From: Thermus brockianus
Lineage (GTDB): Bacteria > Deinococcota > Deinococci > Deinococcales > Thermaceae
NCBI RefSeq assembly: GCF_021462505.1
Contig: NZ_JAKEDV010000005.1
Coordinates: 1-64,000 of the forward strand
Direction: 5' to 3'
DNA length: 64,000 nt
Shown here: piece after piece, positions 49,256 to 51,986 of the stretch
Layout of the letters: every line of letters begins with the position of its first letter
How positions within the stretch are numbered: the stretch's first letter is position 1
Notes under the pieces: generated by a model
What the model was told of the DNA's origin: nothing
The model's input: the letters and a program-made list of their open reading frames with translations, nothing else
Databases searched by the model: none
Position numbers and translations under genes: made by a program

Positions 49256-50371
49256 TTACACCCTCAAGGGAACCACCACCGCCTGGTACCCTCCTTCCTC
49301 CGCCGGGCGCACCAAGCTCGGGCTCGTGGCCCCGGAAAGCCAGAGGGCGGCCTGGCCCGAGATGGGCCCTAGGGCCTCGAGGAGATACCGGGCGTTGTAG
49401 GCCACGGCGAGGGGCGTTCCCTCCAAGGCCACGGGAAGCTCCTCCTGGCCCTTGCCGTAGTCCCCTTCAGCGGACAGGAGGACCCGCCCTTCCTGGAAGA
49501 AGAGGTCCACCCGGTGGTTCTGCCTGTCCGCCAGAACGCTCACCCGCCGCAAGGCCTCGCGGAAGGCCTCGGCCTCGAGGGTGGCCTTTAGGGGAAACTC
49601 CTTGGGGATGACCCGCTCGTAATCGGGGAACTCCCCCTCCATGAGCCTCACCGCCAGGCGCACCCACCCCTCCCCTTCCCGCACCGCCAAGCCCAGGGTG
49701 CCTGGGCCCAGGGCCAAGACCACCTCCCCATCCCCCACCCCTTTGAGAACCCGCGCCACCTCGTCCACGCTGCGGGCGGGGACCACCGCCTTCTTCTGGA
49801 AGGGCTGGGGCCTTTCCAGCTGGTAAAGGGCCAGGCGGTAGCCGTCCGAGGCCACGCTCCGCACCCCCCTTTCCGAGAACTCCAGCTGGACCCCGCGGAA
49901 GATGGCCCGGTACTCCTCGTGGCTTGCGGCGTAGCGCACGTGGGTAAGGGCACGGAGGAGGTCTTCCACCGGCAAGGCGGTCTGCCAAGGGTACGCCTCG
50001 GAAGGGCTAGGCTCGGGGAAGGAAAGCTCGGGGTAGCCCTCGGTGGGGGCCAGGGCGAGCCGGGTACGGAAGGTGCCGGACACCAGTTCCAGATCACCCC
50101 CCAAGACCAGCTCCACCTGCTCCCCGGGGAGGCTTCGGACCAGTTGGAAAAAGGGCTGGGCGGGCACCAGGTAGCGCCCCTCCCCCTGGACCTCGGCCGG
50201 GAGGCCGGCCTCGAGGTCCACCTCCCCGTTGCTCCCGAAAAGCACCAAGGCGTCTTGGCCCAAAGCAAGGCCCAGGTAGGTGAAAAGGGGGTTGGAGCTA
50301 CGCGAAGGGATGACCCTCTCTAGGAAAGAGAGGCGTTCAGCCAGCAGGTTTTTGGGAAGGACTACACGCAT
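49256..50371 (-). CDS. dnaN: DNA polymerase III beta sliding clamp
   Basis: A 371-residue ring subunit with the three-fold repeated clamp fold. MRVVLPKNLLAERLSFLERVIPSRSSNP matches clamp N-termini, and the C-terminal LWLSGATSPSLVRPAEEGGYQAVVVPLRV is the last strand pair that closes the ring. GGAGG lies 9 bases before the ATG. It tethers the DnaE polymerase to DNA. It lies across the origin from dnaA on the same strand. Confidence 0.97.
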   Translation of the reverse strand: MRVVLPKNLLAERLSFLERVIPSRSSNPLFTYLGLALGQDALVLFGSNGEVDLEAGLPAEVQGEGRYLVPAQPFFQLVRSLPGEQVELVLGGDLELVSGTFRTRLALAPTEGYPELSFPEPSPSEAYPWQTALPVEDLLRALTHVRYAASHEEYRAIFRGVQLEFSERGVRSVASDGYRLALYQLERPQPFQKKAVVPARSVDEVARVLKGVGDGEVVLALGPGTLGLAVREGEGWVRLAVRLMEGEFPDYERVIPKEFPLKATLEAEAFREALRRVSVLADRQNHRVDLFFQEGRVLLSAEGDYGKGQEELPVALEGTPLAVAYNARYLLEALGPISGQAALWLSGATSPSLVRPAEEGGYQAVVVPLRV

Positions 50372-50392
50372 TACCCGTTCCTCCTTTTTCTG

Positions 50393-50446
50393 CTACTACG
50401 ACTTTCTTTTTTTAAAGACTTAAAAGGATCGTAGTCGTAGTAGTAG
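50393..50446. promoter_or_regulatory. AT-rich unwinding tract flanked by TAG-trio repeats
   Basis: A core with TTTTTTTAAA and TTAAAAGG (about 50403-50428) lies between an inverted repeat: CTACTACGAC (50393-50402) and GTCGTAGTAG (50434-50443). The right arm continues as repeats of TAG, then GGGCC, then the first DnaA box at 50451. This order (AT-rich, TAG trios, GC cluster, DnaA box) is that of the DnaA-trio unwinding element. Confidence 0.7.
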
Positions 50447-50450
50447 GGCC

Positions 50451-50668
50451 TGTGGATATGTGGATAAGAGGGTAAAAACCGCGTCCTGTACGGAAAAGGG
50501 CTTGTGGATAACTCCTGTGGATAAATGGCCCTGGCCTGTGGATAAGGTGTGGATAACTGGCCAGTTATCCACAGGCCCCAGGAGGGCCCCAGTTTTCCAC
50601 AAGTTGTCCACAGTGTTATCCACAGGAAAAGCCCGGTTATCCACAGGGTTATCCACAGGTTATCCACA
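50451..50668. repeat. array of 13 DnaA boxes
   Basis: Plus-orientation boxes TGTGGATAA at 50459, 50503, 50516, 50537 and 50548, plus TGTGGATAT at 50451. Inverse boxes TTATCCACA at 50565, 50616, 50637, 50649 and 50660, with variants TTTTCCACA (50593) and TTGTCCACA (50604). Ten match the 9-mer perfectly. Confidence 0.95.
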
Positions 50669-50672
50669 GGGG

Positions 50673-51986
50673 TCATACCAAGGCCTCCTTAAGCCGGCGG
50701 AGGAGGCTTTGCACCTCCCGGTCGCTCTCCGAGAGTTCCTGGATTTTCTGGATGGCGTAGAGGACCGTGGTGTGGTCCCGTCCGCCGAAGAGCTGGCCGA
50801 TTTCCGGCAGGGAGGAGCGGGTGAGCTCCCGCACCAGGTACATGGCGATCTGCCGCGGGAGGACCACCTCCTTCCGCCTGCCGCCCCCCAGGAGGTCTTC
50901 GGGGCGGAGGGCGAAGTGCTCCGCCACCTTGCGCACGATCTCCTCTGGGGCCACCGCCACCTCCCGGGGGGCGAAGATCTCGGAAAGGGCCTTGGCGGCC
51001 ACGGCCCGGGTGAGCTCCACCCCGTTTAGGGAGGCGTAGGCGATGGCCCGCATGAGGGCCCCTTCCAGTTCCCGGATGTTGGAGGTCACCTGGCGGGCGA
51101 TGTACTCCAAGACCTCCTCGCTCACCCGTAGGCCCCGTTGCTCGGCGTTCATCTTCAGGATGGCGATACGGGTTTCCAGGTCGGGGGGTTGGATGTCCGT
51201 GATGAGGCCCCACTCAAACCGGCTCCGCAGGCGGGCCTCGAGGGTGAGGATGTCCTTGGGGGGGCGGTCGGAGGACAGGATGATCTGCTTGTGGGCCTCG
51301 TAAAGGGCGTTGAAGGTGTGGAAGAACTCCTCCTGCGTGCGCTCCTTGCCGGCGATGAACTGGATGTCGTCCACCAAAAGGAGGTCCACGGAGCGGTAGC
51401 GCTCCCGGAACTCCGTCATCCGGTCCTCGCGGATGGCGTTGATGAGCTCGTTGGTGAAGGTTTCCGTGGAAACGTATTCAATCTTCAGGTGGGGGAAGCG
51501 CTTGGCCACGGAGTGGCCCACGGCGTGCATCAGGTGGGTCTTCCCCAGGCCCACGCCCCCGTAGATGAAAAGGGGGTTGTAGGCCCGCCCGGGGGACTCG
51601 GCCACCGCCACCGCCGCCGCATGGGCCATGGAGTTGTTGGGCCCCACCACGAAGTTCTCAAAGGTGTACTTGGGGTTTAGCTTGGGTTGGACGGGTTCGG
51701 GAGAGGGGGCGGCCTGGAAGATGTCCTCTTGCACCGGGGTTCCCGGTACCACCTTGAGCTCAAACCGGGGGGCCTGGGCCCCCAGGAGGCTTAGGCCCTC
51801 CTGGATGAGCTCGGCGTAGTGCCGCCGGATCCAGTCCATGGCGAAGGAGGTGGGCACCGCCAATTCCAAGACCCCGTCCCGGATGCCCAGGGGGCGGATC
51901 CGCTCAAACCAGGTGTGGTACTCCACCTCGGTGATGTTGCGGCGGATGTGCTCCAGGACGTGTTGCCAAACGGCCTCGTGGGTCAA
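50673..51986 (-). CDS. dnaA: chromosomal replication initiator DnaA
   Basis: A 437-residue AAA+ protein that melts oriC. Domain I residues 1-80, a short linker, AAA+ domain with Walker [16 protein letters not shown] and Walker B LLVDDIQF, and domain IV with [21 protein letters not shown]...[15 protein letters not shown] for DnaA-box binding. Start codon TTG at 51986 ([16 protein letters not shown]) with GGGGGGT about 5 bases upstream and a TAGAAT 27 bases upstream. The stop is 4 bases from the nearest DnaA box. Confidence 0.97.

Follow-up and report, generated by a model that had tools for sequence, protein, structure and literature searches.

The oriC of this Thermus brockianus is the dnaN-dnaA intergenic region, and an inverted TAG repeat lies inside it. 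We propose that the left arm of this repeat is a second DnaA-trio array, which is placed on the opposite strand and faces the first array over an AT-rich core. We consider it, with a probability of roughly 0.6, as a docking site that probably serves a second helicase. The mirrored repeat may help explain the bidirectional start of bacterial replication. All the positions given below refer to the window, that is the whole 64,000-nt stretch of DNA analysed.

Organization of the oriC region

The region is delimited by the start of dnaN (50371) and by the end of the initiator gene dnaA (50673-51986), both on the minus strand. The dnaN start codon (50371-50369) and its Shine-Dalgarno sequence GGAGG (50384-50380), which together occupy 50369-50384 on the minus strand, adjoin the left, mirrored DnaA-trio array 5'-TCG TAG TAG CAG AAA-3' (50387-50401, minus strand), assigned from sequence conservation, A-C changes of the middle bases and a shuffle test. 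The first four of these trios (50390-50401) best match the grammar N[A/C][G/A]. The AT-rich core, recognised from sequence and given no strand, lies between both arrays at 50402-50428, and the gap between the left and the right array is 24-35 nt across Thermus (24-29 nt in all the genomes except one). The right array (50429-50446, plus strand) was defined from sequence and from comparison across genomes; a GC-rich spacer (50447-50450, plus strand) separates its trios from two DnaA boxes, TGTGGATAT and TGTGGATAA, that overlap by one base (50451-50467, plus strand; sequence and box scan).

As the original prediction stated, the right side has the order of a DnaA-trio element; in our reading it comprises TCG TAG TCG TAG TAG TAG, GGCC and DnaA boxes from 50451. 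Trios, a short GC-rich spacer and a correctly directed DnaA box, the criteria for a BUS, are all found between 50429 and 50467; the right array is a standard DnaA-trio element. The prediction also placed DnaA boxes on the right side only, in agreement with our scan of 50000-50430, where nothing matched a DnaA box when up to one mismatch was allowed. Left of the left array no DnaA box with up to two mismatches was found in any of 27 Thermus genomes, and on this side, in Thermus, no box lies within about 16 bp of the 3' end of the trios, the distance considered for a BUS.

The box scan returned four more boxes in the same direction (starting at 50503, 50516, 50537 and 50548; 50503-50556, plus strand) and seven in the opposite direction (50565, 50593, 50604, 50616, 50637, 50649 and 50660; 50565-50668, minus strand). 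Hence 13 DnaA boxes lie to the right of the core, a run of six with one orientation being succeeded by seven with the reverse one, a layout that was identical in 26 Thermus genomes out of the 26 tested. This layout is nearly invariant also in other Thermaceae and in order-level relatives. A specific tie between the two-direction layout and the left array was considered and rejected, because order-level relatives have the layout without a clear array. A 13-bp perfect palindrome (50548-50573) is located at the point in which the box direction switches.

Both descriptions of the inverted repeat that had been given for this locus hold at the level of single bases. The 10-bp repeat CTACTACGAC (50393-50402) perfectly complements GTCGTAGTAG (50434-50443), and 13 of 14 positions pair between 50390-50403 and 50433-50446, the only mismatch being G50392 with T50444. 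Dinucleotide shuffling of the 70-nt region gave a 14-nt arm with at most one mismatch 4 times in 3000, and such an arm is present in 5 of the 1827 70-nt tiles of the window; chance alone would therefore seldom produce it.

Conservation and base rules of the left array

We compared 27 Thermus genomes, represented by that of the window, one of the same species and 25 others. The left array is at the same position in all 27, as well as in a genome of the sister genus (G049). Its letters vary between species around the minus-strand consensus TAG TAR NAG CAG TAR. On the dnaA tree, the middle columns of the left trios 2 and 3 underwent 0 changes and most flanking columns 4 to 12, while in the left trio 3 the first base changed 7 times and the third base 6 times.

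The letters vary mostly in ways that the nucleobase pocket of DnaA would permit. Any middle-base change involving A was an A-C change, both in the left array (6/6, with one further change, C-T) and in the right array (8/8), whereas in the flank and core columns A-C accounted for only 19 of the 167 changes involving A (P = 3e-12 for the arrays pooled; the genomes are related, so that changes and counts are not fully independent). Third-base changes, in both arrays together, were 17 G-A and 3 G-T. In the left trios, the third position is occupied almost without exception by G or A, whereas the first is unconstrained; all the genomes compared have, in the right array, A or C as middle base and G or A as third base. 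The left TCG TAG TAG CAG agrees with our definition of a trio array, namely at least three consecutive triplets with A or C in the middle and preferably G in third position, and a constraint of the trio type was found in the left array of all 27 Thermus genomes. Concerning the conservation of the arms, what the Thermus species keep is the trio grammar, the exact 14-bp match being confined to the present one.

We also scored mirrored arrays against dinucleotide shuffles. The result was below 0.05 in 27/27 Thermus-type genomes, in 10/20 other Thermaceae (with a weak signal in Meiothermus and others) and in 1/30 Bacillota BUS loci, which corresponds to background; the same test on the opposite strand of the Thermus region gave 0/27. 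These counts should be read considering that the trio weights were chosen after the data had been seen and that the Thermus Shine-Dalgarno sequence adds a little to the score. Some order-level relatives give no signal of a left array.

These rules can be compared with those known for DnaA. In the structure of the B. subtilis BUS, two bases are captured per trio and the remaining one faces away; the middle base is read by Asn187 via its amino group, so that A or C is better than G or T, and at the base neighbouring the middle one G is preferred and A tolerated (PMC10721633). Both Thermus arrays obey these base rules. Moreover, Glu183, Asn187, Ile190, Ile193, Arg202 and Glu228 of the B. subtilis DnaA pocket are identical, by alignment, in the DnaA of this genome. 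The limitation of the middle changes to A and C in nature looks as if evolution confirmed the recognition of the amino group established in vitro for B. subtilis DnaA. The series TAG-TAA-CAG-TAG, present in several Thermus left arrays, is also part of the trio array of H. pylori as given in PMC10316083. Natural middle-C trios (TCG/CCG, 50429-50437) are found in the right array, the third trio from the left having C in 26/27 genomes, and these fit the in vitro replacement of A by C in B. subtilis trios.

From this comparison, it is well supported that the constraint on the left array represents a DnaA docking grammar, the array being a putative site of recognition of single-stranded DNA by DnaA. 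That trios point inward from both sides, with the left arm as a possible second strand-loading point, as had been suggested, is backed at sequence level by a genus-wide left array with the substitution pattern of DnaA-trios, and further by mirrored arrays in other phyla, some of which have mirrored boxes.

Alternative explanations

The original prediction had offered, as another possibility, a hairpin extruded from the repeat that keeps the AT tract open; we considered it together with a cruciform. In this species the 14-bp stem has a folding energy of -12.3 kcal/mol (z = -4.45), and some pairing between the left and the right array is possible in 25/27 genomes; this last figure follows from the partial complementarity of any pair of mirrored trio arrays. 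A hairpin with co-varying arms was rejected by permutation, given that the arms of a genome pair no better with each other than with those of other genomes (P = 0.32). In addition, the fourth trio on the left is almost always CAG, a mismatch to the right TAG; positions one and three of the left trios vary while the right array is near-invariant, and the folds predicted at 70 C are weak (-1.0 to -6.3 kcal/mol). The sequence data hence lend no support to the holding open of the AT tract as a selected function; a selected hairpin is unlikely, and we give the hairpin reading as a whole very little credit. An equally small chance is left to a function in dnaN expression, as leader RNA or translation start region, instead of replication. 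The left motif does abut the dnaN Shine-Dalgarno sequence in Thermus, but middle changes limited to A-C at every third base are not leader-like, no Rfam family exceeded its cut-off at the motif (sub-threshold chance matches only) and no sigma-70 promoter match was found there. In other Thermaceae the array stays by the AT core while the dnaN start can be as far as some 200 nt away from the first box, and mirrored arrays are found also at origins without a nearby dnaN. As candidate identities of the left motif we had considered a sigma-70 promoter or a terminator, and neither was found.

Two further explanations keep the left array within replication initiation. The complement of the array, CTACTGCTACTA on the plus strand, has T at every third base, and TnnT pairs define the DnaD recognition element (DRE) of B. 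subtilis (PMC10201434), so that it could be a helicase-loader site of this type. Such an element presupposes DnaD in the organism, which is not the case here, and both the A-C rule of the middle base and the G/A rule of the third base read the trio strand; we thus regard a loader site of this type as extremely improbable. A different loader with a DnaD-like taste for the TnnT strand is conceivable. Alternatively, the left trios could merely aid melting or stabilise the open bubble: the ssDUE would be recruited to the DnaA oligomer on the boxes, and the loading of a second helicase would not involve them. This explanation shares the sequence evidence of the reading that we prefer, and in T. maritima box-bound DnaA captures a TAG repeat away from the box (PMC10316083), from which it appears that a box-less array can work. 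The T. maritima repeat is, however, in the usual direction, and the mirrored direction in Thermus, together with mirrored boxes elsewhere, suggests a role specific for the second strand. We therefore judge a role in melting only as rather unlikely, and continue to favour a second docking array that probably serves a second helicase.

Proposed mechanism

Under this preferred reading, DnaA would bind the boxes at 50451-50467 and form a filament on the plus-strand right trios, opening the duplex leftward; this step is established for the BUS of other bacteria and is transferred here on the basis of the anatomy of the region. Melting of the AT core would then expose the minus-strand trios at the far end, which could be captured by DnaA protomers. 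Since no DnaA box is present on the left, the protomers of the left array must be supplied either by the right-hand complex, for example if the seven boxes of opposite direction loop back, or by free DnaA. How DnaA would reach the left array when no box stands beside it is the weakest step of the mechanism. Finally, DnaA would hold each strand of the bubble close to the 3' side of that strand, keep the bubble open and offer on each strand a platform for one helicase.

DciA is present in this genome, and a DnaD-type protein (PF07261) was absent from it in a search in which the B. subtilis and L. lactis controls were positive. Without DnaD, the helicase is probably loaded with DciA and the route through a DnaD element used by B. 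subtilis is unavailable here. We put forward the helicase role of the left array as a hypothesis. In bacteria lacking DnaD, the mirrored trio array would represent a concrete and mutable DNA element for the second strand.

Comparison with known systems

The right half of the Thermus origin, with two boxes, a GC-rich spacer and trios, is the same as in the BUS of B. subtilis, H. pylori, D. radiodurans and other bacteria (PMC6669920, PMC8287927, PMC10721633). The known BUS share the letter rules of the Thermus left array and the same DnaA pocket, but have trios on one strand and on one side of the core, to which Thermus adds a facing array on the other strand. Published trios work from an adjacent box, whereas the Thermus left array is box-less; left arrays of Ktedonobacteria and of an Atribacteria MAG (L143) are provided with boxes. 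In the eTrio/ssDUE recruitment of T. maritima, as in Thermus, TAG repeats are not directly beside a box, and there they are bound by box-bound DnaA; the eTrio is on the same DUE strand as the DnaA-trio of that origin, and no mirrored array is described (PMC10316083). The DnaD recognition element of B. subtilis has likewise been proposed to place the second helicase opposite the trios (PMC10201434), but its sequence is complementary to those very trios, and it depends on DnaD, which this genome does not have.

The oriC of Thermus thermophilus, as far as it is summarised from Schaper et al. 2000 in PMC6727663, is a locus of the same kind with closely clustered DnaA boxes; the T. thermophilus oriC literature searched, which did not include the original 2000 paper, contains no mention of two-sided trio arrays. 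The published trio survey required trios beside a box and screened the candidates to one per origin (PMC8287927). The literature searched, with preprints and most subscription papers outside it, contains no earlier report of mirrored trios. The BUS itself is known; the mirrored second array appears new within this literature, and an earlier mention may exist.

Mirrored arrays in other bacteria

We scanned a genome collection with a pattern made of a box, trios, a gap and a mirrored TAGTAG, so that the matches are by construction selected for the mirrored word. The pattern was found on 70 contigs from many phyla, in most of which an AT-rich core lies between the arrays; 50 of the 70 loci had a dnaA or dnaN match. 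Beyond the bases required by the pattern, T continues to recur in the matches with a period of three in the direction of the core (P = 6e-8). Among 54 non-redundant matches, 14 have a DnaA box in mirrored orientation (at most one mismatch, at most 30 nt left of the array), seven of them exact, against 0 for a box in the same direction and 0 for the reversed word used as controls (Fisher 5e-5). Complete mirrored BUS, i.e. with mirrored boxes adjoining the left array, were hence found in other phyla and not in Thermus, and complete face-to-face pairs are seen most clearly at the Atribacteria locus L143 and in Ktedonobacteria, e.g. at L104, L130 and L132. In each of 13 genomes tested the box-trio pattern is present at a single place, and in the Atribacteria and Dependentiae genomes that place carries it on both strands.

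On this basis we tentatively suggest, at somewhat less than even odds, that origins with DnaA-trio arrays placed face to face represent a recurrent design that evolved several times, in which DnaA would hold both strands for one helicase each. Thermus would represent the form with boxes on one side, and Ktedonobacteria, the Atribacteria MAG and a Dependentiae MAG the complete double form.

Two broader generalizations were rejected: a mirrored array universal at bacterial origins, in view of the Bacillota BUS loci at background, and the complete mirrored BUS as a trait of the phylum Atribacteria, exact matches on both strands being present in 1/50 genomes. BUS loci with exact TAG triplets are rare (22/400 in Chloroflexota, 2/149 in the phylum of a Treponema match).

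Single loci differ in arrangement and genomic context. In the Atribacteria MAG, the region L143:1184-1264 between dnaA and dnaN is fully symmetric, with box, trios, AT core, mirrored trios and mirrored box. At the loci of Ktedonobacteria type (L104, L130, L132, L154, L161, L177 and L179-L184) the boxes and trios on either side of a single AT-rich core are turned toward each other; L104 adjoins an ORF that by eye resembles the DnaG primase, and not dnaA or dnaN. Seven loci of Binatia type (L126, L127, L133, L135, L146, L147 and L163) have mirrored CTACTACTT/TAGTAGTAG around the same AT-rich core and, similarly to Thermus, are directly upstream of dnaN and devoid of left boxes. In the Dependentiae MAG, box-trio elements are present on both strands around one AT core (L107:4318-4399), and the neighbouring ORF looks by eye like nusA and not like dnaA or dnaN.
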